A stretch of 34,304 nucleotides of DNA from Bacteroidales bacterium (GTDB lineage: Bacteria; Bacteroidota; Bacteroidia; Bacteroidales; VadinHA17). The position numbers and the translations under genes are program-made. The stretch is from NCBI GenBank assembly GCA_025454755.1, contig JALONV010000028.1, positions 1 through 34,304 of the forward strand. Reading direction: 5' to 3'. The notes beneath the pieces are model-generated. The model saw only the letters and a program-made list of their open reading frames with translations, did no database searches and had not been told where the DNA came from. Below, in pieces: positions 5,966-32,399 of the stretch. The first letter of the stretch is position 1; every line of letters starts with the position of its first letter.

Positions 5966-6385
5966 TTACAAGTACTTCCTGTCCTCGTCAGGTACCTCGA
6001 AATACTTGTCGTAGATCTTTACATCTGGTCCCGATTTCTGTTCTACCTTGTTCCCTCTGATCTTGAAAGTGCATTTTTCCCCGCCTATTCCGGAGAAATA
6101 GATGTTGGATTCCTTTCCATCATCTTCTTTCATAAGGATCCTTACCATGTGCAGGTATTTCATGCTGTTCAGCTGAGCTCCGCAGATAGGGCAGTTAAAA
6201 ATGTATTCTTCTCCATCCTTCATCTCGAATGAAGGGTGAGTGGTTCTGGTGTAGTTCCCGAGTTCAGGATTAAGATAAACCAATCCTCGTTGATTACGGT
6301 CGTGAAGAGATGTAGCAGCAAGTATAATGGAAGTTTTGCCATTCAGGGTTCCCTTGCAAACTTTGCATTGAAATTCTACAGCCAT
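5966..6385 (-). CDS. Small zinc-ribbon protein at the end of the hydrogenase operon
   Basis: A 139-residue soluble protein with two CxxC pairs, C7/C10 (QCKVCKG) and C65/C68 (NCPICGA). Spaced like this they could form one zinc ribbon. The C-terminal half is mixed strand/charged and has no family I recognise. The start is well supported: an AAGGAGGT Shine-Dalgarno sequence lies 6 bases before the ATG, unusually strong for this group. It starts 3 bp past the end of the maturation protease gene, so it is part of the same transcript. The position suggests an accessory or assembly role for the hydrogenase, but that is inference. Confidence 0.7.
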   Translation of the reverse strand: MAVEFQCKVCKGTLNGKTSIILAATSLHDRNQRGLVYLNPELGNYTRTTHPSFEMKDGEEYIFNCPICGAQLNSMKYLHMVRILMKEDDGKESNIYFSGIGGEKCTFKIRGNKVEQKSGPDVKIYDKYFEVPDEDRKYL

Positions 6386-6388
6386 ATG

Positions 6389-6841
6389 TCACCTCCTTTT
6401 ATTTATAAGTTTAATTATAGAATCTGCAATTTCCTTTACAAGATAGGATAAATTTTCGCCAAAGTCAAGATTTGCAGGCTGGATTCCCAGAATAAAAACA
6501 GGCATCCTGAAGAAGTCTTTGAGCTTTTTCAGCGAAATATTGTGTGTGTTATATGTTAAATCCTGTACCTGATTTATATTTAGTAATTTATATATCCCTG
6601 CTTCTTCTCCGAGATCCATGCAATCTATGAGGACAAGTATATCGGGATTCAGGCTGTTGATCTTTCCAATGTAGTTTTCTATACTCACCTCGACTGTAAG
6701 GGCCGATACATTATCTGTTTCTTCAAGATTCCTGCTTATGTAGACACCGGCGCCGTCATCGCTTTTAAGAATATTACCGATCCCGACAAAAAGAATTTTC
6801 CTGTCTTCTCCCCTGAGAAGGGAATAGAGGTCGTTAAACAC
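6389..6841 (-). CDS. [NiFe]-hydrogenase maturation protease, HycI/HyaD family
   Basis: A 150-residue endopeptidase that removes the C-terminal tail of the hydrogenase large subunit after nickel insertion. The N-terminal strand ILFVGIGNILKSDDGAG (16-32) carries the first metal-binding acidic residue. D73 and D76 lie in LIDCMDLG, and H100 lies in NTHNISL. The DDGAG and THNISL forms resemble the HycI type that serves group 4 enzymes. Its substrate is clear from the operon: the large subunit at 13277 has a 34-residue tail after DPCYCCTER, as in E. coli HycE. It overlaps the upstream ferredoxin-subunit gene by 8 bp, which points to translational coupling. Confidence 0.9.
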   Translation of the reverse strand: MFNDLYSLLRGEDRKILFVGIGNILKSDDGAGVYISRNLEETDNVSALTVEVSIENYIGKINSLNPDILVLIDCMDLGEEAGIYKLLNINQVQDLTYNTHNISLKKLKDFFRMPVFILGIQPANLDFGENLSYLVKEIADSIIKLINKRR

Positions 6842-7454
6842 CTTTGTATAAGTATTTTACAAGAACCTGCCTCATGCAGTTTGGGCAGATGATATTGAAC
6901 ATATCCTTTCTCTTGAGTGTGTCGTGTATTTCAACATCGATATCCTGTCCTTCCGCGGTTCTTAGCTTTTGATTGAGCATATTCAGGTTCAGGATTGATG
7001 AGAAGGCTTTTGGGCCGAGCTTCCTGTGCATATAATGAAGATGCTCCCTGGTAGTTATAATTGCGCCGCAGTTTTTGCAGATGAGAAGCTCTTTCTCCTG
7101 ATATTCAACATTTTTCTGTCTGTCGAAGACAGCCAGATCAAAGATCTTATCGGAAAGAATGACTCCTTTAAGAGTAATACAATGATCCTGGCATAAACCG
7201 CAGAATATGCATTTCCCGTAGTCCCTTTTTATCGTTCTGATGCCTTTCTCCCTGTCGTCGGTAAAGGTAATTGCATGAGGGGGACACACATTTGCGCATG
7301 TCTCACATCCGACACAATTCTCATTATCTACAACCGGTTTTCCCCTGAACTTTTCAAAAGGCACATGAGGTTCCTTTGGGAATTTAGATGTATATGCCGG
7401 AGTTACCAGTGATACGACAGCCTCTTTTAGTTCACGCAATTTTGGATACTTCAT
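6834..7454 (-). CDS. Group 4 hydrogenase NuoI/HycF-like 2x[4Fe-4S] subunit with extra zinc-type C-terminus
   Basis: A 206-residue electron-transfer subunit. Two ferredoxin motifs are complete: C47/C50/C53 with C57, and C82/C85/C88 with C92 (CVGCETCANVCP, CIFCGLCQDHC). The position matches MbhN/HycF/EchF, which pass electrons to the NuoB-like subunit. The second motif ends CITLKG rather than CP. The C-terminal half (about 120-206) holds two further CxxC pairs, C126/C129 and C190/C193, which look like a zinc-binding or rubredoxin-like site. HycF-type proteins can have a similar extension. It overlaps the protease gene by 8 bp and mrpG by 4 bp. Confidence 0.85.
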   Translation of the reverse strand: MKYPKLRELKEAVVSLVTPAYTSKFPKEPHVPFEKFRGKPVVDNENCVGCETCANVCPPHAITFTDDREKGIRTIKRDYGKCIFCGLCQDHCITLKGVILSDKIFDLAVFDRQKNVEYQEKELLICKNCGAIITTREHLHYMHRKLGPKAFSSILNLNMLNQKLRTAEGQDIDVEIHDTLKRKDMFNIICPNCMRQVLVKYLYKGV

Positions 7455-7768
7455 TTCACTGCATCTTTATAATCGTCCTTTACGGTTCTCTTGTCAAGTT
7501 TTGCGCCGAAGTGATATGCACCGCGAATTAATGCATGAGCTGCCACGGTTGAACTGAAAAAGATAATCGGTATAGCAAATAATGCTTTAAAAAACGCATC
7601 GCTTATTCCAAAATGAATAGCTACCCCGATCAATATGCTGCAGCAACCCAGGGTTACACATTTTGTAGCTGACTGCAGCCTGTTATAGACATCAGGCAGA
7701 CGGATAAGTCCTATGCATCCGAAGATGTTGAACAAAACGCCGATGCAGATAAAAATAGCAGTTGCCAT
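7451..7768 (-). CDS. mrpG: Mrp antiporter subunit G (MbhC-like)
   Basis: A 105-residue membrane protein with three hydrophobic helices. The family signature is GCIGLIRLPDVYNRLQSATK (17-36), followed by PIIFFSSTVAAHALIRGAYHFG. MrpG is a small structural subunit of Na+/H+ antiporters and of Mbh-type hydrogenases (MbhC). It is the last gene of the Mrp set, overlaps the ferredoxin-subunit gene by 4 bp, and starts 1 bp after mrpF. Confidence 0.93.
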   Translation of the reverse strand: MATAIFICIGVLFNIFGCIGLIRLPDVYNRLQSATKCVTLGCCSILIGVAIHFGISDAFFKALFAIPIIFFSSTVAAHALIRGAYHFGAKLDKRTVKDDYKDAVK

Positions 7769-7769
7769 A

Positions 7770-8036
7770 TTACTCGTTCAATTTTTTTCCTGTGAGGTAT
7801 TTTGCAAGAGTAAGTGTTCCGATAAAGCTCAGGATGATCCAGGCTATACCAATGTCCAGAATGAAGGATTTCTCTGTCTGAACAGATATTATTGCACATA
7901 TTCCGACGACAAGAATCCCGAAAATGTCAATCCCGACCATCCTGTCAGGAATTGTGGGGCCGCGAATGATCCTGTACAAACAGACGCTGCTCAACCCTAT
8001 CTGTATGTAAAGCAATATGTTAAGTATTTCAGTCAT
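7770..8036 (-). CDS. mrpF: Mrp antiporter subunit F (MbhB-like)
   Basis: An 88-residue, three-helix membrane protein. The signature YRIIRGPTIPDRMVGIDIFG (21-40) is typical of MrpF/MnhF. It contributes to the small-subunit part of the antiporter module (MbhB in Pyrococcus). It overlaps mrpE by 4 bp and mrpG follows after 1 bp, so the small Mrp subunits are tightly coupled. Confidence 0.93.
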   Translation of the reverse strand: MTEILNILLYIQIGLSSVCLYRIIRGPTIPDRMVGIDIFGILVVGICAIISVQTEKSFILDIGIAWIILSFIGTLTLAKYLTGKKLNE

Positions 8037-8518
8037 TCGATTATATTTTTAATGTATTTTTCAAATTTGCCTGTGATAATGCTTGTATAAACCTCAGGAT
8101 CATCTGATCTTACATAAATCCAGTGTACAAAAAGATAATCGTCGATGATATCAACAGATATTGTACCCGGAGTCATAGTGATTGAATTTGCAAGAAGCAT
8201 TCTTGCCAGCTCTGACTTCAGCGAGGTTTTTACTTTTACTATTCCCGGCTTTATAGGCATTGCCGGGTGAAGAACCCTGTAGGCAACATCAAAGTTGGCT
8301 TTTATGCATTCCCAGGTAAATACAACCAGGTAAACCAGGAACCAGAAATAACGTTTTGGCTGAACAAGCTTGTATACACTGGTTATAAAGTACCTTGTAA
8401 AAATAAGGGAACAGATCAGTGAAGCCACTGATCCGACAATAAGGTTGGGAACACTCAGCCTGAATGTCAGGAGGAGCCAGAAAATAAGGGATAATATGAA
8501 TACTGTAACGTATCTCAT
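8033..8518 (-). CDS. mrpE: Mrp antiporter subunit E (MbhA-like)
   Basis: A 161-residue protein with two N-terminal membrane segments and a soluble C-terminal domain. Family segments include the SVPNLIVGSVASLICS stretch, YLVVFTWECIKANFDVAYRVL, and the later ANSITMTPGTISVDI with the WIYV strand. MrpE/MbhA is needed for assembly and stability of the antiporter part. It abuts mrpD directly (no gap) and overlaps mrpF by 4 bp. Confidence 0.93.
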   Translation of the reverse strand: MRYVTVFILSLIFWLLLTFRLSVPNLIVGSVASLICSLIFTRYFITSVYKLVQPKRYFWFLVYLVVFTWECIKANFDVAYRVLHPAMPIKPGIVKVKTSLKSELARMLLANSITMTPGTISVDIIDDYLFVHWIYVRSDDPEVYTSIITGKFEKYIKNIIE

Positions 8519-10057
8519 TTAATTTCCGGTTATTATTGATGAATATTTTGATGGATCCATCAGTATATCAATTGCAGGTGTCAGCACCAACTCACGGATC
8601 CCGGGGATGACCAGCAGGCTTAACAGTACACACAGAATGCTCATGATAACCATACTGAATATCATGGGGAAGGGAACCTCCTTTATCTTCCTTTCATTGA
8701 CAGCATCAGTTTTATTGTAAAACGCATAGCGCTGGAATTTCAGGAAGGACGCAAGCGTAATTATGCTAACAATGACAGCTAGGAGAGCGACAAAGTAAAA
8801 CCTGGCCATAATGGCAGCAATTATAATGATAAGCTTGCTGAAGAATCCATTGAAGGGAGGTATTCCCGAAATCGACATCGATGCAATAAAGGAGGTGGCA
8901 GAGGTGGCAGGCATGAATTTCGACAAGCCCCCCATCTCATGAAGGTCACGTGTGCCAATTGTATACTCTATTGCACCTGCATTGAGAAAAAGCAAACCTT
9001 TGAATGCGGCATGATTTATCAGGTGGAAGACACCGCCGGTAATTGCGAGGGCTGCCACTTCAGGTTTTTCTCCGCGCGAAATAAGGATCATACCGATGCC
9101 GGCAGACAGTACAACATACCCCATCTGGCTTATACTGTGATATGCCAGCAGACGCTTGATGTCCCACTGTCCAATCGCAAGGAAGACTCCAATAACCATC
9201 GACAGGGTACCCAGTGTGGTGATGAGGATCGACATTCCTTCGGTGATCGCGAACATATTAAAGAACAGCCTGATGATCACATAAATGCCTACTGCTTTAA
9301 TGAGTACTCCCGACAGCATCGCTGAAATGGGAGAGGGGGCAGATGAATGTGCATCGGGCAGCCAGGCATGGAACGGTATGATGGCCGCCTTGAGACCGAA
9401 CCCGCTCAATATAAGTATCTGTGCAAAAAGGTAAAATGACTTCTCATATCCGCTGCTCATGGATGCTTTTATATCAGCAATATTCAGTGTCTTTGTTTTC
9501 CAGTATATCAATCCTATTCCAAATAGTATTATGAATGAGGCTATACCACCGAGGACCTGGTACTTGAAGGTTGCCTCTAGCTCGTTCTTTTCGACTCCGA
9601 AAGCAACCAGCGCATATGCTCCGATTACAGAGATCTCGAGGAAAACAAAAATATTGAACAGGTCGCCGCTCAGTACAACGCCGTTCATTCCGGCAACCAT
9701 GAGGCAGAAAAGTGCATAGTAATAATTCTCCGCAGTATATCTTTTTATATAGGAGATGGAATAAAATACCGACAGAAATCCGACAATGTTTATTATACAA
9801 AGTACAATCACTGTAAAACCATCCATTACCATGTAAATCCCGATCGGGACGCCGTTAACCGGCTCCCATCCCCCGACTTTATAGAGCGACAGTTTACTGC
9901 CTGTTGTAATCAGTGAATAGATACTGAAGATAAGAAGAATAAGAAGTATGAGGGAAGCAAAGTACTTATTGAAATCCTTTATGAATCTTCCGAGGATCAT
10001 TATCAGGAAAGCTCCTGCAAGCGGAATGGCTACAAATAATGGTATCAGCGGATTCAT
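8519..10057 (-). CDS. mrpD: Mrp antiporter subunit D (NuoM/N-like, MbhH-like ion channel)
   Basis: A 512-residue, multi-helix ion-translocating subunit. The conserved TM5 glutamate is present (E141 in NIFVFLEISVIGAYAL), as is the TM7 lysine (K223 in GFGLKAAIIPFHAWLPDAH). LLAYHSISQMGYV and the discontinuous-helix region SGIPPFNGFFSK are also intact. It corresponds to MrpD/MbhH, the antiporter-like subunit closest to the hydrogenase in known Mbh. The residues needed for ion transport appear complete, unlike in the NuoL-like subunit at 11408. A 3-bp gap separates it from mrpC. Confidence 0.93.
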   Translation of the reverse strand: MNPLIPLFVAIPLAGAFLIMILGRFIKDFNKYFASLILLILLIFSIYSLITTGSKLSLYKVGGWEPVNGVPIGIYMVMDGFTVIVLCIINIVGFLSVFYSISYIKRYTAENYYYALFCLMVAGMNGVVLSGDLFNIFVFLEISVIGAYALVAFGVEKNELEATFKYQVLGGIASFIILFGIGLIYWKTKTLNIADIKASMSSGYEKSFYLFAQILILSGFGLKAAIIPFHAWLPDAHSSAPSPISAMLSGVLIKAVGIYVIIRLFFNMFAITEGMSILITTLGTLSMVIGVFLAIGQWDIKRLLAYHSISQMGYVVLSAGIGMILISRGEKPEVAALAITGGVFHLINHAAFKGLLFLNAGAIEYTIGTRDLHEMGGLSKFMPATSATSFIASMSISGIPPFNGFFSKLIIIIAAIMARFYFVALLAVIVSIITLASFLKFQRYAFYNKTDAVNERKIKEVPFPMIFSMVIMSILCVLLSLLVIPGIRELVLTPAIDILMDPSKYSSIITGN

Positions 10058-10060
10058 GTT

Positions 10061-10399
10061 TTACCCTCTTAAGTTTTTTATCTCTCTGATATCGAATGTC
10101 CCGTATTTCCTGTAGATCCTTATTATAACTGCCATCAGCATTGCTGTTGTGGCCAGCCCGATTACAATCGCAGTCAGCACGAGCGCCTGTGGAAGGGGAT
10201 CGACATATATCTTTACCGGATCGGCCGGATCAACTATCGGGGCAACACCACCATCGATATATCCTATCAGAGCAAAGAACAGAAACGTGCTGAACTCCAT
10301 GATCGACAATGAAATAGCAATCTTAATCAGGTTCCTCCTGGTGATTGCTCCATAGAGCCCGACAAGAAATAATATAAAACACATCCAATAGGCTATCAT
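10061..10399 (-). CDS. mrpC: Mrp antiporter subunit C (NuoK-like, MbhG-like)
   Basis: A 112-residue, three-helix NuoK homologue. The first helix precedes RRNLIKIAISLSIMEFST, and the signature DPLPQALVLTAIVIGLATTA (67-86) is characteristic of MrpC/MnhC. In Mbh it is MbhG, next to the MrpD-like channel. It overlaps mrpB by 4 bp and is followed by mrpD after 3 bp. Confidence 0.95.
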   Translation of the reverse strand: MIAYWMCFILFLVGLYGAITRRNLIKIAISLSIMEFSTFLFFALIGYIDGGVAPIVDPADPVKIYVDPLPQALVLTAIVIGLATTAMLMAVIIRIYRKYGTFDIREIKNLRG

Positions 10400-10833
10400 T
10401 CTTTCATTTCTTCTTTAAATATTACCAGTGCAAGAAAAATAGTCAGGATCGATGCGGCAACTTCAATCCCGACAAATATGTTGTAAAGAGGCAGCATTCC
10501 AGCGCTGATCAGCTGGCCTAAAGTGCCTTTTGGCATCCAGTTCATGAAAAAGATCCTGGTTCCGAGCAGAAGTCCTGAAAGAGCCAGCAGCAGGACTGTC
10601 AGTATAGCCAGGTTCTCGTACAGTGTCGATCCTGTCTCTTCCTTCATGAGTTTTACAAAATCACTTCCAAACGCCAGTATGAGCAGGATAAATGAACCGG
10701 CAAGAATAACTCCGCCGGCAAATCCGCCACCGGGAGTAAGATGACCATGTATTATAACATAAATGCCATACATAAAAACCATCCCCGCAATAAGCTGGGT
10801 TGTCTTCTTTACTATGGTCGTCATCCCTTTCAT
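10396..10833 (-). CDS. mrpB: Mrp antiporter subunit B (MbhF-like)
   Basis: A 145-residue, four-helix membrane protein. The sequence HGHLTPGGGFAGGVILA (29-45) is the MrpB/MnhB signature. It matches MbhF of membrane hydrogenases. The gene is separated from the split-MrpA C-terminal gene by a 33-bp spacer made of TCTTTTATCTT-like repeats, and overlaps mrpC by 4 bp. Confidence 0.94.
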   Translation of the reverse strand: MKGMTTIVKKTTQLIAGMVFMYGIYVIIHGHLTPGGGFAGGVILAGSFILLILAFGSDFVKLMKEETGSTLYENLAILTVLLLALSGLLLGTRIFFMNWMPKGTLGQLISAGMLPLYNIFVGIEVAASILTIFLALVIFKEEMKE

Positions 10834-10866
10834 TAGTCTTTTATCTTTGGTCTTTTATCTTTTATC

Positions 10867-11394
10867 TTACTTCTTCCCCTTTATTCTCAATATCGTAAGA
10901 ACACCCAGAACTGCAGTTACCAGGACTGTAGCCTCGCCAAGTGTATCATATCCCCTGAAGTCGAAAACAACTCCTGTCACAAGGTTGGCGCTGCCTGTTT
11001 TTTCAGTCGCCCCTTCGATATACGGACCAGCCATACGCAGAGTGCTTTTTCCGAACTCATCGAGAGATGAAACCGAGATTATGAAAAAGTAAAGCATGAC
11101 GCCTAAAATCAATGCGCTAAGGGTCATGGATACATAACCTTGCGGATCCGGCTTTGAGAATTTCTCTTCCCTGGAGCTGTCGAGTACCACAGCAACCATT
11201 ATAATAAGGGTAATTGTCTCAACAACGATCTGTACTATTGCCAGGTCGGGTGCTTTCAGAAGAAGGAAGCAAATTACCAGCCCATAACCCACTATTCCGC
11301 ATGCTATTACAGCTGAAAGGAGATCTTTCGCATGTATCGCGTACAAGGCTCCGATTATCATCAATCCGGTTATAATGGCAATGGCGATTTCCAT
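10867..11394 (-). CDS. MrpA C-terminal part: MbhD-MbhE-like fusion (DUF4040 plus MrpB-N-like)
   Basis: A 175-residue membrane protein with two joined modules. Residues 1-80 match MbhD/DUF4040 (HAKDLLSAVIACGIVGYGLVI, then LLKAPDLAIVQIVVET). Residues 90-175 match MbhE, the part near the C-terminus of MrpA (VTGVVFDFRGYDTLGEATVLVTAVLGV). In full Mrp antiporters both are fused to the NuoL-like part as MrpA. Here they form a separate gene 13 bp after the NuoL-like gene, so MrpA is split. In Pyrococcus Mbh the two modules are separate genes and the NuoL-like part is absent. Confidence 0.88.
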   Translation of the reverse strand: MEIAIAIITGLMIIGALYAIHAKDLLSAVIACGIVGYGLVICFLLLKAPDLAIVQIVVETITLIIMVAVVLDSSREEKFSKPDPQGYVSMTLSALILGVMLYFFIISVSSLDEFGKSTLRMAGPYIEGATEKTGSANLVTGVVFDFRGYDTLGEATVLVTAVLGVLTILRIKGKK

Positions 11395-11407
11395 TTGATA
11401 CAGTTAT

Positions 11408-13267
11408 TTATATCATAATAAGCAACATAATGATAAGTCCTGCGCACACCCAGATTATATATCCGGGCAATACACCCGTATGCGCTTCGCTGAAAAGATT
11501 GCTGAGCCAGAGAACAAAGCGCCTCGAGAGATCATATATATCAAACACTTTCTCCTCAGCCTTCTTATATATGGCTGAGAAGAATTTAAATTCACCTATG
11601 GTCTTGTAAAATTCCGTAGTCGCATATTGGGTCCTGTCCTGGATTTTTTCACCGCCAATAAAGCTGTCTTCTGTCCGGAACCTCTTTATATTAAGCGCCA
11701 GGTATATTATTATGCCAACAGCTATTGAAATGATTACAAGTAACGATACAAGCGATGAATTCCAGAATCCCGGGAACTCAAATGTGCCTGATACCGGCAT
11801 GAATAATTTTGGTACTATTATTCCTGTGGCAAACACACCGAAGACAACACACATGAGAGCAAGCACAGCAAGAGGAAGCCACATCACAACAGGAACTTCC
11901 CTGACTTTTTCAAGTTCAGGTCTGCGGCGGCTTAGGAAGATACCTCCGATGAGCTTGATAAAGCTTGCAAGTGTGAGTGCTGATCCAAGCACTGCAAGAG
12001 CCAACCATAACACCCATAGCTTGCTGGCTATGCCTGCACCGGACCCAAATTCAATTATACCCTGGTAGATCATCCATTTTGAAGCAAATCCGTTAAACGG
12101 AGGTACCCCGGATATAGACATTGCAAAGATAAGAGTGGAGATGAAAGTCACTGGCATTGCTTTCGCCAGACCACCGAGATCATCGATTTCTTCCTTCCCT
12201 GTCCTGTATTCAACGCACCCTGCTGAAAGCAATAATCCGCTCTTGTATATGGCATTGTTCACCATATGGAATAATCCTGCAGCAACACCTATCATGGAGC
12301 CAAGTCCAAAACCGAGGATCATATACCCGACCTGGGAGACTGCATGAAAGCCGAGCAGTCGTTTGTAATTATGCTGCACCAGTGCCATCATCACTGCGGT
12401 TATGATAGAAATAACTCCGATCGATAAAAGCAGAACTCTCAGCCACCCGGTCATTGTGAACATACCTGTGGTTATCCTGGCCAGAAAATATATGCCAAGC
12501 AACTTATCGAGCGATGCCGGAAGGTATGCCGACGAAGATGCCGGAGCGCATTTTGTATAATCAGGCACCCATGTATGCAATGGGAATGCACCGGCTTTGG
12601 TAAAGCTTCCTGTCAACAACGCAAGAAATGCTACTACAGTCAGGATATTTGTTGTAGGGATGGAGACTTCCGATATGCTCAGCGAACCGGTTACCTTCCA
12701 GATGATGGCGATGCCAAGGATCATTATACTGTCAGAGGCGCCAATCAGGATAAGCGTCTTCTTGGCAGCTGCGGAACTCTCATCGTCATGACCATGAATA
12801 AGTTTGTATAAAGTCAGTCCAAGCGCACCCCAGAATGCAAGGAACAGCAGCATGTTGTCAGCCAGGACAGCTCCATATGCACATCCAAGCGTGATCAGGA
12901 AATAAGGGTAATAATTCTTTACTCTTCCTTCTTTAATATAGGCCAGTGAATATAAGTTGATCAGGACTGCGAAAATGCTTATAAATATAATTATCAGCCT
13001 GCTGAGGTTGTCGGAGTTGAATGAAACATATTCCAGAACATCGGGAGGAATATTAATGCCGAAGAAATCAAATCCTGATGTACGTGCAATTTCGCCAAAC
13101 CTGTAAACCTGGTCTCCGAAGGTATATATTGAAGTTGACAGACCTCCCGCATTGATAATTATCAGCAATGAGATTATGCCTTTGACCGTCCTTAGTTTAT
13201 CCGGTATAAGTAAGAGCAGGAGACCGACGACAATCGGCAGAAACAATAAGCTGAAAATTAGATCCAT
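11408..13267 (-). CDS. NuoL/MrpA-N-like proton or sodium channel subunit
   Basis: A 619-residue subunit with about 16 hydrophobic helices. NuoL-family features are the TM7 lysine (K224 in GSFTKAGAFPLHTWVPD), LLGFHAVSQVGYMILG, FHMVNNAIYKSGLLL and ISGVPPFNGFASKW. The C-terminus has extra helices joined by a charged segment (FRTEDSFIGGEKIQDRTQYA), as in NuoL/MrpA. The TM5 glutamate expected after FW is absent: the sequence reads FLAFWGALGL (143-152), so that position is glycine. The gene follows the large-subunit gene after 9 bp and precedes the MbhD-MbhE fusion, exactly where MrpA belongs. Transport activity cannot be assumed given the missing glutamate. Confidence 0.9.
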   Translation of the reverse strand: MDLIFSLLFLPIVVGLLLLLIPDKLRTVKGIISLLIIINAGGLSTSIYTFGDQVYRFGEIARTSGFDFFGINIPPDVLEYVSFNSDNLSRLIIIFISIFAVLINLYSLAYIKEGRVKNYYPYFLITLGCAYGAVLADNMLLFLAFWGALGLTLYKLIHGHDDESSAAAKKTLILIGASDSIMILGIAIIWKVTGSLSISEVSIPTTNILTVVAFLALLTGSFTKAGAFPLHTWVPDYTKCAPASSSAYLPASLDKLLGIYFLARITTGMFTMTGWLRVLLLSIGVISIITAVMMALVQHNYKRLLGFHAVSQVGYMILGFGLGSMIGVAAGLFHMVNNAIYKSGLLLSAGCVEYRTGKEEIDDLGGLAKAMPVTFISTLIFAMSISGVPPFNGFASKWMIYQGIIEFGSGAGIASKLWVLWLALAVLGSALTLASFIKLIGGIFLSRRRPELEKVREVPVVMWLPLAVLALMCVVFGVFATGIIVPKLFMPVSGTFEFPGFWNSSLVSLLVIISIAVGIIIYLALNIKRFRTEDSFIGGEKIQDRTQYATTEFYKTIGEFKFFSAIYKKAEEKVFDIYDLSRRFVLWLSNLFSEAHTGVLPGYIIWVCAGLIIMLLIMI

Positions 13268-13276
13268 TTCTTATTA

Positions 13277-14470
13277 TTAATCATTGTCCCTTATATCATT
13301 AGTTCTTTTAACTGAAAGATTGATCAGTTCTTCAGCGTTCATCAGCTTCTTACCTGAATGAACATCGTAGGCAACAGCCATACGTTCAGTACAGCAATAG
13401 CATGGATCGACGGCAGCAAGTGAGATCGTAGCATCGGCAATAGTCTGTCCTATGCATGATTTCCGGAACGTTGCAATATTCACATAGCTTGGAGCTCTTA
13501 TCTTATGGCGTGCAGGAGAGCTGGATCCATCGGAAACTACAAAATGAAAAACCTCCCCCCGGGGAGCTTCAGCCCGTCCGTTACCTGTTCCCTCAGGTAT
13601 TTCAGTCACTTTTACCGATATATCCCCTTCCTTTTCCTTTTTAAGACCTTCGAGGCACTGCTCGATTATTGATATTGATTCATACATCTCCAGCAATCGC
13701 ACCTCTGCCTTGGCAAATACATCTCCTGCCTGTGCTGTAATAACTTTCCAGTTAACCAGCGGATAGGCGGCATAAGGATCATCTTTGCGGATATCAATAG
13801 CAAGACCTGATGCCCTGGCAGTGGGCCCTACAGCGGCATAATCAATGACATCCTGTTTTGTGAGAATGCCTACTCCCCTGGTTCTGGCGTGTATTACCGG
13901 ATCGTCCATTACGGCTCCTGTAAGAAGATCTGCTTTCTTCTTAAAGTCATCCAGGACTTTCTGAATGGCAGGTATTTTTGTCCCTTCTATATCTCTTCTG
14001 ACACCCCCGACCTTGAACATTGCATAGCTGTTACGGTTCCCGGTGATCATTTCAAAGATATCAAGGATGGGCTCACGGTATTTCCATGCCCACATGAACA
14101 CGGTATTATAGCCAAGAAAATGTCCGGCAAGACCCACCCACAGAAGATGACTGTGTAAGCGTTCCAGTTCTCCGATTATTGACCTGATGTATTTGGCCCT
14201 GTCCGTTATTTCTTTTCCAACGATCTCTTCAACTGCATTGGCAAATGCAAACGGGTGTGATGTGGAACAGATGCCGCAGATTCTTTCAACCAGGAAGAAA
14301 ACCTGTTCGTAAGTCTTTGATTCACTGAGTTTTTCAATACCCCGGTGGTTGTATCCGGTTTCCCACTTGATATCCTTGACGATCTCACCGTCACAGTAAA
14401 GCTTGAATAATTCAGGTTCCTCCTGCAGGGGGTGATATGGTCCGATCGGTATGAGTGTCTTTTTGCTCAT
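13277..14470 (-). CDS. Group 4 [NiFe]-hydrogenase large (catalytic) subunit
   Basis: The catalytic subunit, about 397 residues. Numbered from the ATG at 14470, the N-terminal nickel motif is ERICGICS (C65, C68). The C-terminal motif is DPCYCCTER (C357, C360), so all four Ni-Fe ligands are present. This separates it from NuoD and from the hydrogenase-derived Mbx-type proteins. The 34-residue tail starting MAVAYDV resembles that of HycE and should be removed by the protease encoded at 6389. Overall it matches MbhL/EchE/HycE-C. The reading frame is open to a GTG at 14482. I prefer the ATG at 14470, preceded by AGAAGAAG. The NuoC-like gene ends just upstream. Confidence 0.95.
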   Translation of the reverse strand: MSKKTLIPIGPYHPLQEEPELFKLYCDGEIVKDIKWETGYNHRGIEKLSESKTYEQVFFLVERICGICSTSHPFAFANAVEEIVGKEITDRAKYIRSIIGELERLHSHLLWVGLAGHFLGYNTVFMWAWKYREPILDIFEMITGNRNSYAMFKVGGVRRDIEGTKIPAIQKVLDDFKKKADLLTGAVMDDPVIHARTRGVGILTKQDVIDYAAVGPTARASGLAIDIRKDDPYAAYPLVNWKVITAQAGDVFAKAEVRLLEMYESISIIEQCLEGLKKEKEGDISVKVTEIPEGTGNGRAEAPRGEVFHFVVSDGSSSPARHKIRAPSYVNIATFRKSCIGQTIADATISLAAVDPCYCCTERMAVAYDVHSGKKLMNAEELINLSVKRTNDIRDND

Positions 14471-14484
14471 CTTCTTCTGCACTC

Positions 14485-14922
14485 TTATTTAAACTCTTTC
14501 CTGTATGGATAAACACCTTCTGCCCAGTTGCCTTCCGATATCAGCTTCTCCTGGTTAGGATGATTCAGGAAATTGATCCCGAACAGCTCATGCATCTCCC
14601 TTTCTATCCAGTTTGAAGCGTTGAACATATTTGAAAGCGATTCTATCTGCGGTTTCTCTTTGTCAAGAATAACATGAACGTTAAGTATGAGCCCTGTATC
14701 ATCCTTGCTGAAATGATAATGGATCTCAAATCCCTTCTTCGTATGTAATGCTGATGCTATTATGAACCTGAAGCCAGCTGTTTTATACAGATAATCCGCA
14801 ACATTCAATATCGATTCAGGTTTGATGGTGATGATAACACGTTTTTCATTCTTCACCGCCTCTCCAAGAATCTCAGTTCCGTATTTCTTCTTAAACTCCT
14901 CTATTATTGTTTTTGTACTCAT
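14485..14922 (-). CDS. Group 4 hydrogenase NuoC-like subunit
   Basis: A 145-residue soluble subunit homologous to NuoC/MbhK/EchD. The best segment is ASNWIEREMHELFGINFLNHP (120-140), which is the NuoC signature, followed by GVYPYRKEFK. It has no cofactor and binds the large and small subunits together at the membrane surface. In HycE this domain is fused to the large subunit, and here it is separate, as in Mbh and Ech. The gene ends just before the large-subunit gene. Upstream is a 60-bp spacer containing TTACCGATTACCGATTAC repeats. Confidence 0.92.
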   Translation of the reverse strand: MSTKTIIEEFKKKYGTEILGEAVKNEKRVIITIKPESILNVADYLYKTAGFRFIIASALHTKKGFEIHYHFSKDDTGLILNVHVILDKEKPQIESLSNMFNASNWIEREMHELFGINFLNHPNQEKLISEGNWAEGVYPYRKEFK

Positions 14923-14939
14923 CTGTTTTTCTTGTACCG

Positions 14940-14982
14940 AACCTTACCGTTTACCGATTACCGATTACTGATTACCATTTAC
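14940..14982. repeat. Short degenerate minisatellite inside the hydrogenase operon
   Basis: A run of TTACCGATTACCGATTACTGATTACC-type units, about seven bases each, fills the spacer between the NuoB-like and NuoC-like genes. A comparable run built from TCTTTTATC lies at 10835-10866. Both interrupt an otherwise tightly packed operon. No stem-loop or promoter match was obvious. Confidence 0.6.
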
Positions 14983-15396
14983 CTATGAATTATTCACCAG
15001 CTTCACAATCCCCGCAATTATTGCCTCCGGTTTAGGAGGACATCCGGGTATATATGCGTTTACAGGAATTATTTTGTCGACCGGACCTGCAAAAGTCATC
15101 CCTTCCGCGAAAATTCCACCAGTGCAGCCACATGCTCCTATTGCAACAACAAGTATTGGTTTTGGAGCCTGGTTATATATCTCAAGCAGCCTTTCCTTAT
15201 CACGTCTGTTTATTGAACCATTTACAAGCAGTACGTCTGCATGTCTTATGCTTCCAACCAATAATATACCAAATCGCTCCAGATCGTGTCTGGGTGTCAG
15301 GCAGTCAAGGATCTCAATATCGCAATTATTGCAGGAGGCTCCTCCAAAGTGGAAGACCCAGAGTGACTTTTTAAAGCAATAACTTTTAAAACCCAT
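14983..15396 (-). CDS. Group 4 hydrogenase small subunit (NuoB-like)
   Basis: A 137-residue electron-transfer subunit carrying the proximal [4Fe-4S] cluster. Likely ligands are C22 and C25 (GASCNNCDIEILDC), C89 (GACGCTGG) and C119 (PGCPPKPE), matching NuoB/MbhJ/EchC. It has no medial or distal cluster domains and no Tat signal, which is typical of group 4 and rules out uptake hydrogenases. It follows the NuoH-like gene after 10 bp. Confidence 0.94.
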   Translation of the reverse strand: MGFKSYCFKKSLWVFHFGGASCNNCDIEILDCLTPRHDLERFGILLVGSIRHADVLLVNGSINRRDKERLLEIYNQAPKPILVVAIGACGCTGGIFAEGMTFAGPVDKIIPVNAYIPGCPPKPEAIIAGIVKLVNNS

Positions 15397-15406
15397 GACT
15401 CAAGTA

Positions 15407-16339
15407 TTATAAACCAAATGCAATAAGTACCAGTGCAATTACAGCTATCAGGTTCATCCAGATCATGAAGAAGCTGATCGCCTGCTTGATCTTTACCCTG
15501 GGATTTGTGTTCCTGATAAGGGTAAGGGCAAGCACAACTCCAAGAACTTTAAGTATAGCCCACAGGATGTTAATCCCATGCAGATTGAATCCGCTCATCA
15601 GCATAGCAACAATCAGTGCCGGCAGAATGAAGAGCATTATGTATTTGGCAAGCTTGATCATAGCATAGGCAGCTCCGGAATACTCTATGAAGATACCTTC
15701 GGTGATCTCCGTCTCTGCTTCCGGCATGTCGAAAGGAACAAGGGCAAGCTTGGCCTGAATGCAAAATATCGCAACAATAAATAAAAGTACTCCGGAGATG
15801 CTTCCGATGAACGGAGTTCCTTCCTGTTGAGTTTGTATGATAGTGTTTAGATCAAAATGCTGTTCGCATTTCATAATAATACCTGCAATAACAAGTATGA
15901 ATGTCATCTCGTACCCGAGGATCAGCTTCATTTCCCTTGATCCGCCCACTGCAGCAAGTGGATTTCCCGATGCAAGTGCGCCTATTATATATGAGAACGA
16001 AGGGATTGTAAGGAGATAAAAGATCACGAGAAGGTCGCCTTTGAAACCGGTATTGATACTGAACAGAGGCAGAAGGATGAAAACCGAGGCCAGAGTTGCA
16101 CCGATAACTGCAAAAATCGGGGCCAGAAGGAATAAAAGCGGCGAACCATGTCTGGGAAGAATCGTTTCCTTAACCAGCAGAAGCTTGAAGAAATCATAGA
16201 ATGGCTGGAGGAGGGGAGGCCCCTTGCGGAACTGAACCCTGGCAGTGATCTTCCTGTCGAACCATGAAAGGAAAGCTCCGATTGTTGCTGCGAACAGCAA
16301 TCCGGGGAAGACAAAGAAATAAAACAGACTCACTGCCAT
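15407..16339 (-). CDS. Group 4 hydrogenase membrane anchor (NuoH-like)
   Basis: A 310-residue integral membrane subunit with about eight helices, homologous to NuoH/MbhM/EchB/HycD. Signatures are DRKITARVQFRKGPPLLQPFYDFFKLL (near 28-54, the quinone-site-like loop of complex I) and FDMPEAETEITEGIFIEYSG, whose acidic residues start the proton path. It anchors the soluble hydrogenase arm to the antiporter part. The upstream ferredoxin-type gene ends 7 bp before it. Confidence 0.95.
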   Translation of the reverse strand: MAVSLFYFFVFPGLLFAATIGAFLSWFDRKITARVQFRKGPPLLQPFYDFFKLLLVKETILPRHGSPLLFLLAPIFAVIGATLASVFILLPLFSINTGFKGDLLVIFYLLTIPSFSYIIGALASGNPLAAVGGSREMKLILGYEMTFILVIAGIIMKCEQHFDLNTIIQTQQEGTPFIGSISGVLLFIVAIFCIQAKLALVPFDMPEAETEITEGIFIEYSGAAYAMIKLAKYIMLFILPALIVAMLMSGFNLHGINILWAILKVLGVVLALTLIRNTNPRVKIKQAISFFMIWMNLIAVIALVLIAFGL

Positions 16340-16346
16340 TTGCCTT

Positions 16347-16847
16347 TTATTTGGTTTTTTCTGTAATATACAGGTACTCTTTTACAAGCACTTTTTCGTT
16401 CAGGGCATATATGTTCTTTTCAGGAGATTCCGATTCCCCGGTAAGTGTTACTGTCCCTTCAGGACAAGCAGCAATGAACTTTTCAAGCTCTTTCGGATCA
16501 TTCAGATCATAGAACAGATCCTTGTTCCTGTGGTGTTTGAAGAAATCGGTCATCATGGTTCCGAAAGGGCAGATTGTGACGCATGATTTGCAAGAGACGC
16601 AAAGATTGGTATGCCGCTCAATGACTCCGTCCTTATCCTTTTCAAGGGCATCTGCAGGGCAAACGGCAATGCATGGGGCATCCTCGCATTTCCTGCAGGT
16701 AAACCTGAATGTGGCAAGCTCGCGTATCGTCTTTAATCCATTATTATTGGCCGATGGATAGAAGTATGCCTCCGGTAATGCCATGGCTGAATTTTCTGCC
16801 ATGACAGCCCTGAGCTTAATCATATCTATGAGTATCCTTTGGGCCAT
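16347..16847 (-). CDS. 2x[4Fe-4S] ferredoxin-type electron-transfer subunit (HycB/HydN-like)
   Basis: A 166-residue protein with two complete cluster motifs: C51/C54/C59/C63 (CRKCEDAPCIAVCP) and C83/C86/C89/C93 (CVSCKSCVTICPFG). The CxxCxxxxC spacing of the first motif is that of HycB/HydN/DmsB-type subunits. These typically bring electrons from a partner dehydrogenase. Here it sits between the NAD(P)H module genes and the membrane core, a logical bridge between the two (inference). A 10-bp gap separates it from the upstream cyclic-nucleotide-fold gene. Confidence 0.85.
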   Translation of the reverse strand: MAQRILIDMIKLRAVMAENSAMALPEAYFYPSANNNGLKTIRELATFRFTCRKCEDAPCIAVCPADALEKDKDGVIERHTNLCVSCKSCVTICPFGTMMTDFFKHHRNKDLFYDLNDPKELEKFIAACPEGTVTLTGESESPEKNIYALNEKVLVKEYLYITEKTK

Positions 16848-16857
16848 TTTTTAATAC

Positions 16858-17325
16858 TTAAAGAATTAACTGATTCATTAGCTGGAAGCGCGTGTCACTT
16901 AACCGGTGTGAAATAGTTTGTGCAATCTTTGCCATTGTCTTGAATCCAAAATCGCAGTCTTTTTCGATTTCTTTATTGAGTTTCCTTGCATCTATCGATA
17001 TTACTTTTGCAGGGGTTATTGCCATCACCCAGGCTGTCGAAATATATGGGCTGAAAACGGCAGACCAGGAAAAGAGCTGTCCTTCATCAATAGTGCCCAG
17101 ATGGATACGTTTTTCATGTGCAAGGCTGATGCCCAGTGAAAGTGTCCCTTCAAGGAGTATAGCCACATCTTTAAGTTCATCATACTGTTCGAACAGGATA
17201 TCCTTGACTTTAAACTCTTTCATCGTGCACATCTGCAGAATTATCTTCAGCTGTTCCTCTGTATAGCCCTCAAGGAACCTGATTTTTTTCAGATCCTCAA
17301 TTGTCAGTTTTGTATTCTCACTCAT
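16858..17325 (-). CDS. Cyclic-nucleotide-binding-fold protein without DNA-binding domain
   Basis: A 155-residue protein that is almost entirely a Crp-type beta-roll: FLEGYTEEQLKIILQMC, then a DILFEQYDELKDVAILLEGTLSL strand pair, and IDEGQLFSWSAVFSP where the phosphate-binding cassette would be. The C-terminal helix (TMAKIAQTISHRLSDTRFQLMNQ) resembles the Crp dimer helix, but the protein stops there, without a helix-turn-helix. The usual cassette arginine and serine pattern is not evident, so it may not bind cAMP. It lies inside the operon between the flavin subunit and the ferredoxin-type subunit. A protein-level regulator or assembly role is more likely than transcription control (inference). 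Confidence 0.75.
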   Translation of the reverse strand: MSENTKLTIEDLKKIRFLEGYTEEQLKIILQMCTMKEFKVKDILFEQYDELKDVAILLEGTLSLGISLAHEKRIHLGTIDEGQLFSWSAVFSPYISTAWVMAITPAKVISIDARKLNKEIEKDCDFGFKTMAKIAQTISHRLSDTRFQLMNQLIL

Positions 17326-17365
17326 TTTTTCTTCGTTTTTGAAAAGTTCTCATGAGCCCGACATT

Positions 17366-18193
17366 TTATTTCCATATATCAGGTGTATTCTTCAATTCAT
17401 CATATGTAAAAACGGGTCCGTCTTTACATACAAAGTATTCACCCATCATGCAATGACCGCATTTCCCAAGTCCGCATGACATATTTTTCTCCATCGAGAG
17501 GTAAATCTGTTCATCTTTATATCCCATCTCCAGGATTCTCAGAGTTCCAAACTTCATCATGACGGGAGGTCCGCAAACCACTGCAATAGATTTTTCAATG
17601 TTAACTTTTACCTTATCCAGTAGCTTTGTTGCAACACCTACAGATTCATTCCATCCTTCTTCAGCTTTATCGACAGTACGGTAGGCTTCGAATTTTTCTA
17701 TACTGTTAAGCCTCGCAAAAAGAGGCTTGTAGATACAGTCAGAAGGTGTCTTGGATCCATAGCATAAAATGACTTTTTCAAGATTGTCTTTGATGTGTTC
17801 CAGCGCATAAAGCAACGATCTGATAGGAGCGAGACCGCAGCCTCCTCCCAGGATAAGTACCTCCTTGCCAAAAAATGATTCAACCGGATAGCCTCTGCCA
17901 TATGGTCCCCTGATACCCATGTAAGCGCCGGGTTTCAGGTTATGCATATATTCAGTTACATATCCTGTCTTCATAACCGTTACTTCAAGCCTGTCGGTTA
18001 TTTGGGGTGAGGATGACGGAGTGAATGGTGCTTCACCGATACCGTCGACGGATAACTCGATGAACTGGCCGGTTTTAAAAGAAAATTCATGCTCAGGGAT
18101 AAGCACAAAGGTCTTTATCAAAGGTGATTCTTCAATGACCTCTATCAGCTTTGCCTTTAATGGCTTATATATATTCTTATCATAAACCATCAT
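17366..18193 (-). CDS. FAD/NAD(P)-binding hydrogenase gamma subunit (HydG/AsrB-like)
   Basis: A 275-residue flavoprotein of the ferredoxin-NADP reductase type. The FAD site is around EAPFTPSSSP (54-63), the NAD(P) loop is LGGGCGLAPIRSLL (115-128), and CGPPVMM comes before the C-terminus. The [2Fe-2S] motif is C240/C245/C248/C256 (CGLGKCGHC...C), as in dihydroorotate dehydrogenase electron-transfer subunits. It matches the gamma subunit of sulfhydrogenases and AsrB of anaerobic sulfite reductase, which exchange electrons with NAD(P)H. NADH and NADPH preference cannot be separated by eye. It directly abuts the beta-subunit gene. No sulfite reductase gene is nearby. Confidence 0.9.
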   Translation of the reverse strand: MMVYDKNIYKPLKAKLIEVIEESPLIKTFVLIPEHEFSFKTGQFIELSVDGIGEAPFTPSSSPQITDRLEVTVMKTGYVTEYMHNLKPGAYMGIRGPYGRGYPVESFFGKEVLILGGGCGLAPIRSLLYALEHIKDNLEKVILCYGSKTPSDCIYKPLFARLNSIEKFEAYRTVDKAEEGWNESVGVATKLLDKVKVNIEKSIAVVCGPPVMMKFGTLRILEMGYKDEQIYLSMEKNMSCGLGKCGHCMMGEYFVCKDGPVFTYDELKNTPDIWK

Positions 18194-19189
18194 CTATGAT
18201 TTAGCCAGTTCCATGAATATCTCATTCTTGTTTATTTTGCCGATGCATGCTTCTATGCATCTCCCGCAACCCGTGCAGGCTGTGGATCTGAATTTTGCCG
18301 ATTTCCAGGCATATTTGCACATATACCTGTTCCTGAAGCGATTATGCAGTTCATGCAAAGCATCCTCACCTCCGGCGACCCTTTCAAATCCGGGATACTG
18401 ACAGGCATCCATCTGCTTCACTTTTTCGAATCCCGGCTTGTCTATGAGCAGGAAGCAGGTACAGGTCGGGCATATTGTTGTGCAGGCTCCGCATGAAACA
18501 CAGCGGGCAGAATGCTTTTTCCACACTTCTTCACCTGCATCCCTGACAAGCTTGCCTGTGGTTACAGAATCAGGCAATCCCTTGTTAGCCGCTTTGAGAC
18601 TCGTTTCAGTCATCAGATGCTCTTTCTCAATGGATGATAATAATTTGGCAGTATCAGCGGAAGATGAAGCCGGGATATCTTTAACGAAATTTTCTCCTTT
18701 ACCAGAAATGATCCTTATGATAATTTTCCCGTTCAGGGATATTATTGCCAGGTCTGCAGTGCCTGTAGCATACGGAGTGATATTATAAGAGAGGCAGTGA
18801 CAGTGTTCCTGTATCCCAAAACAATCCGATGAAATTAATATTGTGTTTTCACGCCGCTGGCTGTAGAAAATATCCATGAAGTCCTTATCGAGGTAGATCT
18901 CATCCAGGAGCTTCAATCCTTCAATATCACAATTAGGGGTGCCGATTATAACCCTGGGCTTCCCGGGTGGGCCTCCGGATGTCACATTTTCCAGGACGGG
19001 AAGGAAAAAGCTCTTAAGTGGTGTGGAAGGTTTTGGTTTGTTATATGTGATTGCAGCAATATTATTATGCTGTATCAACTCATAATCCTGGCCGAATTCG
19101 TCACTTATGGCAGCAAAGACAACATGGGAAACAAGCAACTTCTCAAGAAATCTATCCCACTCCTCCTTATCAATAATTAAATGATTCAT
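18194..19189 (-). CDS. Iron-sulfur hydrogenase beta subunit (HydB/AsrA-like)
   Basis: A 331-residue protein and the first gene of the operon. The C-terminal ferredoxin-like domain holds two [4Fe-4S] motifs: C230/C233/C236/C240 (CVSCGACTTIC) and C305/C308/C311/C315 (CTGCGRCIEAC). Extra cysteines in the N-terminal half (C87, C123, C130, C132) may bind a further cluster. It resembles the beta subunit of Pyrococcus-type sulfhydrogenases and AsrA, the partner that passes electrons between the flavin subunit and the hydrogenase. Its ATG is 2 bp from a Rex-like palindrome, so expression is probably under redox control. Confidence 0.88.
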   Translation of the reverse strand: MNHLIIDKEEWDRFLEKLLVSHVVFAAISDEFGQDYELIQHNNIAAITYNKPKPSTPLKSFFLPVLENVTSGGPPGKPRVIIGTPNCDIEGLKLLDEIYLDKDFMDIFYSQRRENTILISSDCFGIQEHCHCLSYNITPYATGTADLAIISLNGKIIIRIISGKGENFVKDIPASSSADTAKLLSSIEKEHLMTETSLKAANKGLPDSVTTGKLVRDAGEEVWKKHSARCVSCGACTTICPTCTCFLLIDKPGFEKVKQMDACQYPGFERVAGGEDALHELHNRFRNRYMCKYAWKSAKFRSTACTGCGRCIEACIGKINKNEIFMELAKS

Positions 19190-19190
19190 T

Positions 19191-19210
19191 TATGTGACAA
19201 GATTCACATA
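19191..19210. promoter_or_regulatory. Rex-type operator upstream of the hydrogenase operon
   Basis: The palindrome TATGTGA-CAAGAT-TCACATA has perfect 7-base arms. It fits the Rex core TGTGA-N6-TCACA, which is also the classical Crp core. The divergent gene at 19378 encodes Rex, so Rex is the simplest reading. The site lies between the candidate -7 box and the operon start codon, where a bound repressor would block initiation. Confidence 0.7.
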
Positions 19211-19241: not shown

Positions 19242-19376
19242 TAAAAAATGCAATAATTTTCCACGAATATAATTATATAATTAGTTAATTAACATGTAAT
19301 CAATTAGATAGATAAATATTTTTATATTAAAGAAGAATTATTTAACTTGCAAAATGAAAATATAAAAATGAAATGA

Positions 19377-19392
19377 TGTGAAACAATTCACA
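19377..19392. promoter_or_regulatory. Rex-type operator overlapping the rex start codon
   Basis: TGTGAA-ACAA-TTCACA is a perfect 16-base palindrome, matching the inner part of the Rex consensus TTGTGAAnnnnTTCACAA. It overlaps the GTG start codon of rex (19378) and the first codons. This would give autoregulation of rex and control of the hyp genes behind it. Confidence 0.7.
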
Positions 19393-22292: not shown

Positions 22293-22519
22293 TGTGTCTT
22301 AGCATTCCGGCAAGGATATTATCGATTAATGGCAAAATGGCAGAAGTCTCCGCAGGCGGATCCATTTTTAAAGCAGGCCTCCATATAATAGAAGATGCCA
22401 GACCGGGCGATTATATACTTCTGCATGCCGGATTCGCCATCCAGAAAATAAGCGAGGAAGAAGCCGTAGAAACACTAAGGATTATTGAAGAGATGAATAA
22501 TTCCCTGAATGATATATGA
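22292..22519 (+). CDS. hypC: Hydrogenase maturation chaperone HypC
   Basis: A 75-residue chaperone of normal length. It begins MCLSIPARI, with the essential cysteine at position 2. It carries iron with its CO and cyanide ligands between HypD and the hydrogenase large subunit. Its ATG shares a base with the hypF stop (TAATG) and its stop overlaps the hypD start, which fits translational coupling of partner proteins. Confidence 0.96.
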   Translation: MCLSIPARILSINGKMAEVSAGGSIFKAGLHIIEDARPGDYILLHAGFAIQKISEEEAVETLRIIEEMNNSLNDI

Positions 22520-24604: not shown

Positions 24605-24614
24605 TGATCAGGCC

Positions 24615-24931: not shown

Positions 24932-24933
24932 AT

Positions 24934-31206: not shown

Positions 31207-31218
31207 TTTCTCAACGAC

Positions 31219-32379: not shown

Positions 32380-32399
32380 CTCATAAAAATTCCGAAATA

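Follow-up and report, generated by a model that had tools for sequence, protein, structure and literature searches.

Could one membrane complex exchange electrons between NAD(P)H and H2 and couple that exchange to ion movement? The question is raised by an operon on the minus strand (19189 to 5966) of contig JALONV010000028.1, from the Bacteroidales bacterium assembly GCA_025454755.1. The window analysed, 34,304 nt in length, is one entire contig of this draft genome (2.9 Mb, 160 contigs, 97.8% complete). The 19 genes of the operon, with intergenic spacing of −8 to 60 bp, bring together homologues of the beta and gamma subunits of soluble hydrogenase I (SHI), a [NiFe] group 4 core and an Mrp antiporter set. 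Judged by this composition, the product is probably a single membrane-bound hydrogenase complex in which NAD(P)H:H+ oxidoreductase activity is coupled to ion movement; the enzyme is most likely reversible, and the coupled movement that of Na+/H+. The gene content, ligands, conservation, rex gene and palindromes described below were observed, and from them we infer the activity, the assembly into one complex, the use of NAD(P)H, the ion and the direction.

Composition of the operon

In the order of transcription, the front half of the operon encodes an AsrA-like subunit, an AsrB-like subunit, a cyclic nucleotide monophosphate (cNMP)-binding-domain protein, a first ferredoxin-type subunit (Fd1), a NuoH-like subunit, the small subunit, a NuoC-like subunit and the large subunit. 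The rear half encodes an antiporter-like subunit (N-terminal part of MrpA), an MbhD/E-like protein (C-terminal part of MrpA), MrpB, MrpC, MrpD, MrpE, MrpF and MrpG, a second ferredoxin-type subunit (Fd2), a HycI-type protease and a 139-amino-acid protein. An initial annotation of this DNA had claimed a compact minus-strand operon at 5966–19189, and all the parts it claimed were located; the cNMP-domain gene between AsrB and Fd1 had been overlooked.

Profile and PDB matches bore out the AsrA/HydB-like and AsrB/HydG-like genes proposed for the operon head. The AsrA-like Fe-S subunit (331 amino acids, 18194–19189, minus strand) scored 135 bits against the NCBIfam profile ShyB, 114 against AsrA and 112 against HydB, all under the cut-offs, and its sole PDB sequence match at E ≤ 0.001 was the Pyrococcus furiosus SHI beta subunit (9nez_B). 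The AlphaFold model of this subunit (mean predicted local distance difference test score [pLDDT] 78.6, with parts of the Fe-S region below 50; predicted template modelling score 0.81) gave a template modelling score of 0.72 against 9nf0_B, the SHI beta subunit of an entry titled NADPH-bound; the next structural match was F420-dependent sulfite reductase (E 0.013). Among aligned sequences, from which rows with less than 85% coverage or with stops were excluded, 16 Cys of AsrA were invariant (64/64 rows). The AsrB-like subunit (275 amino acids, 17366–18193, minus strand; PF00175, PF00970 and PF10418) is an SHI-gamma-like FAD/NAD(P)-binding protein with a [2Fe-2S] motif. It scored 208 bits against TIGR02911, under the cut-off, and P. 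furiosus SHI gamma (9nez_C) was the top of its 25 PDB matches. Its four cluster Cys and the Lys of GSK were invariant in all 69 rows; this Lys lies close to the site at which contacts with the 2′-phosphate are often made. With respect to group 3b sulfhydrogenases, the SHI-type beta and gamma subunits are thus present, and the group 3 large and small subunits are absent from the operon, the large subunit being group 4/NuoD-like.

The large subunit (401 amino acids, 13277–14482, minus strand; PF00374 and PF00346) carries the motifs RICGIC and DPCYCCTER, and its top PDB matches were MbhL (284 bits) and HycE (270 bits). The claim of a group 4-type membrane core with intact Ni-Fe ligands held, as the four Cys ligands were invariant in 63/63 aligned rows. 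DPCYCCTER was found in every row, and the stricter pattern RICGICSxxH was satisfied in only 56. The L2 consensus given for group 4 in the available text of one study, [DE][PL]Cx[AGST]Cx[DE][RL] (PMC7886697), differs from the DPCYCCTER motif, in which Cys takes the place of [AGST] in all 63 rows; the ligand set itself is intact, and we read the motif as a variant. This extra Cys, directly before the last Ni-Fe ligand, may be an active-site signature of the clade.

In a 28-row tree, the large subunit formed its own clade with that of G326, a genome of another class (support 100/99), and this clade fell with the group 4 hydrogenases, split from complex I NuoD (100/99). A misannotated complex I was ruled out by this split and by the presence of the Ni-Fe ligands. 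No NuoE/F/G input module was detected in the operon by Pfam search, and a search of the draft genome gave no complex I NuoD. The tree, with few references and one Mbh reference, for which the program printed long-branch warnings, did not settle the position relative to MbhL, HycE/HyfG, the Azospirillum enzymes and an AsrAB-less paralogue from G030, a genome of the same genus, the nearest join reaching only 81/60. This paralogue belongs to a second group 4 hydrogenase of G030 (L108, 7763–17806), which has a large subunit 44% identical to the one described here and three antiporter-like subunits, and within this stretch no AsrAB match was found.

The remainder of the core comprises a NuoH/HycD-like membrane anchor (310 amino acids, 15407–16339; PF00146, E 1.1e-64), a NuoB/MbhJ/HycG-like small subunit (137 amino acids, 14983–15396; PF01058) with MbhJ (6cfw_J) as its top PDB match, and a NuoC/30-kDa-like subunit (145 amino acids, 14485–14922; PF00329), all on the minus strand. 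Two ferredoxin-type subunits accompany it. Fd1 (166 amino acids, 16347–16847, minus strand) has two [4Fe-4S] motifs and was assigned as HycB/HydN-like from Pfam/NCBIfam, PDB and blastp matches; it corresponds to HycB/HyfA by blastp, its top PDB match is the hydrogenase Fe-S subunit 9mqx_E, with HycB (7z0s_B) third, and its 8 Cys are invariant in 67/67 rows. We take it to be CooF-like as well. It is distinct from the HycF-like ferredoxin that had been proposed, which is Fd2 (206 amino acids, 6834–7454, minus strand). Profiles and PDB matches describe Fd2 as HycF/NuoI/MbhN-like, with HycF (7z0s_F) at the top; it has two [4Fe-4S] motifs and a C-terminal Cys/His site, and the 8 Cys of the clusters, together with another 4, were invariant in 55/55 rows.

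The Mrp-type subunits that characterise a group 4d Mbh enzyme are present. The statement that all Mrp subunits follow the core stands provided that two proteins count as a split MrpA, namely a 619-amino-acid antiporter-like, MrpA N-terminal/NuoL-like subunit (11408–13267; PF00361; TIGR00940 224 bits, under the cut-off) and a 175-amino-acid MbhD+MbhE-like protein (10867–11394; PF13244 and PF20501) that aligns to MrpA C-terminal positions. These are followed, likewise on the minus strand, by MrpB/MnhB (10396–10833; PF04039), the NuoK-like MrpC (10061–10399; PF00420), the antiporter-like MrpD (512 amino acids, 8519–10057; PF00361), MrpE (8033–8518; PF01899), MrpF (7770–8036; PF04066) and MrpG (7451–7768; PF03334).

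Three further genes of the minus strand complete the operon. The HycI-type maturation endopeptidase (150 amino acids, 6389–6841; PF01750; TIGR00072 77 bits, above the cut-off) had been described as the last gene; the protease is present, and the final gene encodes a zinc-ribbon-like conserved protein of 139 amino acids (5966–6385). In the latter, C7, C10, H50, C65, C68 and C105 were invariant (43/43 rows). It had no Pfam match, and none of its 226 PDB fold matches at E ≤ 10 reached E ≤ 0.001 (model mean pLDDT 75); perhaps it is an assembly factor. The cNMP-binding-domain protein (155 amino acids, 16858–17325) had PF00027 as its only Pfam match, with no DNA-binding domain detected in that search. 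It is facultative, occurring in only 22 of 68 loci, and may be a regulatory subunit.

Conservation in relatives and other partners in the genome

The conservation of the operon was assessed in the best 80 of 393 relatives from one contig scan with a single protein query. Each gene was counted only at loci reaching far enough under chosen distance limits, and presence meant any correctly oriented tblastn match at E ≤ 1e-3, partial or broken copies included (e.g. AsrA of L083). AsrA was present in 59/60 testable loci and AsrB in 63/64. Fd1 was found in all 68 (the L100 copy is truncated) and Fd2 in 52/53. Comparable counts were obtained for MrpB (64/65), MrpC (63/64), MrpE (57/58), MrpF (55/56) and MrpG (52/53); MrpD scored 60/60, in which the L100 count is a cross-match to the other antiporter-like gene. 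HycI was present in 51/53 loci and the terminal 139-amino-acid gene in 41/52. Where the cNMP gene was missing and the gap was measured (n = 41), the spacing between AsrB and Fd1 was at most 23 bp in 37.

The same gene order recurred in relatives and in another class, where G326 has the same order minus the cNMP gene and a large subunit 56% identical. Chance clustering of the genes was ruled out by the tight spacing together with this recurrence. A high-scoring large subunit (E < 1e-200) was found in 21 of 35 other genomes of the same genus; with the source genome counted, the figures were 21/393 genomes of the order at E ≤ 1e-120 and 2/395 genomes of the phylum at E ≤ 1e-75. Together with the conserved order, these counts indicate that the operon is patchy but coherent within Bacteroidota. 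It is present in the named isolates Labilibacter sediminis (L095) and Marinilabiliaceae bacterium JC017 (L097).

The possibility that the beta and gamma subunits serve another hydrogenase was addressed in the source genome, and no second client for AsrAB was found in the 97.8%-complete draft. AsrC is absent from the operon, and the genome gave 7 weak matches to it, none above the cut-off. Besides the operon copy, the only AsrB-like protein of the genome is a weaker one on contig C85, read as PyrK-like. A single further NiFe large subunit was detected in the genome, its gene grouped with MvhD/VhuG/VhuA-like, HdrA2-like and QmoC-like ones. This Mvh/Vhu-like hydrogenase cluster is located at L107, 8048–15694, of the source bacterium.

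The genome also gave five [FeFe] hydrogenase matches and a complete Rnf set. HydCBA-type [FeFe] hydrogenase genes (PF01257, PF01512 and PF02906) lie on the plus strand of the window at 30739–34181, about 5 kb past hypB. Three [FeFe] hydrogenase matches are found on contig C37 (16687–26539), with a second rex paralogue nearby.

Rex gene, hyp genes and palindromes upstream of asrA

Divergent from the operon, the plus strand carries rex and then hypF, hypC, hypD, hypE, hypA and hypB. The rex product, a redox-sensing repressor of 227 amino acids (19378–20061), scored 211 bits against NF003996 (cut-off 138), and the second Rex of the genome, on C37, is 34% identical to it. The hyp genes occupy 20058–25581; TIGR00143, 00074, 00075, 02124 and 00073 matched above the cut-off, and hypA (TIGR00100) scored under it.

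Candidate operators were scored with a consensus that we take to be that of Rex. One Rex-operator-like palindrome lies 5′ of asrA (19192–19209, 2 mismatches), and another overlaps the start of rex (19376–19393, 1 mismatch). The comparison covered those 61 of the 80 loci in which the asrA start was usable and DNA lay upstream of it. In 53 of these, rex was divergent from asrA, and the rex-asrA region held a candidate Rex site with at most 2 mismatches in 54. Within 250 bp 5′ of asrA, palindromes were found in 53/61 loci and at least two in 44; 200 Markov-shuffled sets averaged 1.7 and never exceeded 6. The same count upstream of six other genes was 0/69, 0/80, 2/69, 1/68, 3/65 and 0/43. The loci are related and the counts are therefore not independent. 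In relatives, the site recurs near −22 from asrA, mostly as a symmetric ATGTGA-N6-TCACAT, and near −205. Most of the −22 sites differ from the assumed consensus at the same two end bases, and their arms are constant and their middle bases variable.

Repression by Rex is relieved at high NADH. The protein senses NADH/NAD+, as described in the available part of one source (PMC5317091). The rex gene and the palindromes suggest Rex control of the hydrogenase operon, a prediction that is new here, and the operon would most likely be induced at high NADH. A promoter-like match was also found 5′ of asrA (19300–19272, minus strand). Promoter-like sites numbered 42, against 34.2 (standard deviation 6.3) in shuffled sequences, and terminator-like sites 9, against 10.4 (standard deviation 3.5). 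By these counts, internal starts are neither supported nor excluded.

Proposed mechanism, alternatives and significance

Based on the match of AsrAB to SHI beta/gamma and on the resemblance of Fd1 and Fd2 to formate hydrogenlyase subunits, an electron path can be proposed. The FAD of the AsrB-like subunit would receive hydride from NAD(P)H, and single electrons would then pass from the AsrB [2Fe-2S] cluster through the AsrA clusters, Fd1, Fd2 and the small subunit to the Ni-Fe site, at which H+ and H2 would be interconverted. The NuoH-like anchor would couple the redox reaction to the two antiporter-like subunits and the Mrp set (Na+/H+). The layout would thus be that of the formate-hydrogenlyase/Mbh machine with the donor enzyme swapped for the diaphorase half of a group 3b hydrogenase. 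The earlier suggestion of an NAD(P)H-linked membrane hydrogenase is favoured by the composition, the co-conservation of the beta and gamma genes with the membrane hydrogenase, the lack of another detected client in the draft genome and the predicted Rex control; NAD(P)H coupling, ion pumping and assembly are its predicted parts.

The energetics were also considered. Transfer from NADH to H2 was calculated as +18 kJ/mol at 1 bar H2, and as −4.7 or +3.0 kJ/mol at 1e-4 bar for E(NADH) of −320 or −280 mV. The reaction costs energy at moderate H2 and comes close to equilibrium when H2 is low, so a redox valve working near equilibrium, in either direction, would be expected. In the forward direction, H2 would be formed from NAD(P)H as NADH accumulates, with inward ions pulling if needed; in reverse, H2 would reduce NAD(P)+ with ion extrusion. 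Because Rex derepression occurs at high NADH, the NADH-consuming, H2-producing direction would be favoured. We tentatively put forward a more specific form of the proposal, which we consider possible but somewhat short of an even chance: an NADH-oxidising, proton-reducing, ion-coupled respiratory complex, complex I-like with H+ as terminal acceptor, an SHI beta/gamma NAD(P)H module and a full Mrp arm, serving anaerobic Bacteroidota as a Rex-controlled valve that balances NADH/NAD+ and H2 via the Na+ gradient.

Several observations weigh against the NAD(P)H-linked, ion-coupled hydrogenase. The genome already has HydABC-type [FeFe] hydrogenase and Rnf genes available for NADH/ferredoxin balance, and the need for the operon enzyme is thus not obvious. 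The cofactor cues conflict, as the invariant Lys of AsrB would allow NADPH and Rex points to NADH. No rex was found beside asrA in 8/61 loci, including the isolates L095 and L097; L095 retains hyp genes at the asrA-adjacent position, and the rex-less L087 sits near a contig end. Over the whole window at 3 mismatches, 16 Rex-like sites were counted against 20.7 expected, which is no excess. One of the 80 loci, L100 on a chromosome record, has a hydrogenase core without AsrAB, a truncated Fd1 and no Mrp gene past MbhD/E, a state that we attribute to decay or misassembly. Moreover, absences from a draft genome of this contiguity and completeness are not final.

Other readings of the same genes were weighed. 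The first is a confurcating or dual-input hydrogenase, in which AsrB would take electrons from NAD(P)H and the HycF-like or HycB-like subunit would take them from reduced ferredoxin, both feeding one Ni-Fe site, or in which ferredoxin would pay for NAD(P)H. Fermenters make both carriers, and the operon has two separate ferredoxin-type subunits. In the available HydDB entries, the Mrp-linked 4d relatives use ferredoxin. AsrB, however, is the only flavin-binding subunit that Pfam detected in the operon, so flavin-based confurcation of the HydABC/Nfn kind is not indicated, and ferredoxin could add electrons without bifurcation; we consider this reading unlikely, though the most serious of the three. 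The second takes uptake as the physiological direction, with H2 oxidation reducing NAD(P)+ and driving Na+/H+ extrusion, and appears a little less probable still. Induction at high NADH, which the Rex palindromes imply, would have the wrong sign for an NADH producer, and there would be little yield at low H2. The Mrp set is complete, nevertheless, electron transfer from H2 to NAD+ runs downhill when H2 is high, and group 3b enzymes are given as reversible in the HydDB text available. The last, an ordinary ferredoxin-linked, Mbh-like Mrp hydrogenase with asrAB co-transcribed but serving a soluble sulfhydrogenase or sulfite reductase, is improbable: of the solved structures, P. furiosus Mbh does give the large and small subunits their highest scores, but the draft genome gave no group 3b large subunit, no AsrC above the cut-off and no second AsrB beyond the PyrK-like one, and the only testable locus to lack asrAB, L100, has a broken operon.

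The proposed NAD(P)H-linked complex was then compared with known systems. P. furiosus Mbh (4d, 6cfw) shares the Ni-Fe core and Mrp-type subunits with the Bacteroidales operon, which adds AsrA, AsrB and a HycB-like subunit and has two antiporter-like subunits, whereas Mbh has one; the large subunit did not join MbhL, in a part of the tree that is weakly supported. The beta and gamma subunits are common to the operon and to P. furiosus SHI (3b, 9nez/9nf0), which differs in that its catalytic subunits are of group 3 and it lacks a membrane arm. The E. coli formate hydrogenlyase HycBCDEFG (4a, 7z0s) has the same modular path of donor, HycB-like, HycF-like, small and large subunits; its donor is formate dehydrogenase and, unlike the Bacteroidales operon, the hyc operon is without an Mrp set. 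Two Azospirillum plasmids (L133, 4871–14065; L134, 1773–11065) likewise combine a ferredoxin, a donor enzyme and a group 4 core, with large subunits 45% and 44% identical to the Bacteroidales one. In these clusters, another donor-swapped version with a 4Fe-4S ferredoxin, the donor is aldehyde:ferredoxin oxidoreductase, and two antiporter-like subunits and no Mrp set are annotated.

In the class descriptions available from HydDB, NAD(P)H coupling is assigned to groups 3b and 3d and to no group 4 class, Mrp linkage is assigned to 4b and 4d, and group 4 enzymes are ferredoxin-, formate- or CO-linked or undetermined, with 4g among the last. Group 4g is described as heterogeneous, with no member characterised, in the accessible text of one study (PMC7886697). 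For Cloacimonadota and Omnitrophota, Mrp-linked 4g enzymes are described with no mention of AsrAB in the part of the report available (PMC8542988). The nearest precedent is Saganbacteria RX5A, in which a group 4 [NiFe] region has Mrp-like subunits, cooF, asrA and asrB, all shared with the Bacteroidales operon, and adds a molybdopterin oxidoreductase; as far as the available text extends, its authors propose an Mbh-like function and name relatives in Zixibacteria and Omnitrophica, and do not develop NAD(P)H linkage or Rex (PMC6349859). The earlier remark that no well-characterised enzyme is known to have this make-up stands for the characterised enzymes found, among which the combination of NAD(P)H, Mrp and group 4 is not represented, and is qualified by the similar gene set noted once, in Saganbacteria, in the same text (PMC6349859). 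Searches of an open-access collection turned up no description of the Bacteroidales operon or of its control by Rex, subscription papers being largely outside the search.

The hypothesis is testable, because Labilibacter sediminis and Marinilabiliaceae bacterium JC017 are isolates that carry the operon. If it is true, the enzyme would illustrate the modularity of complex I independently, since another NAD(P)H module would here be fitted to a related membrane machine. Fermenting Bacteroidota could then draw on the ion gradient to drive electrons from NADH on to H2, which could have a bearing on H2 supply in anoxic sediments.

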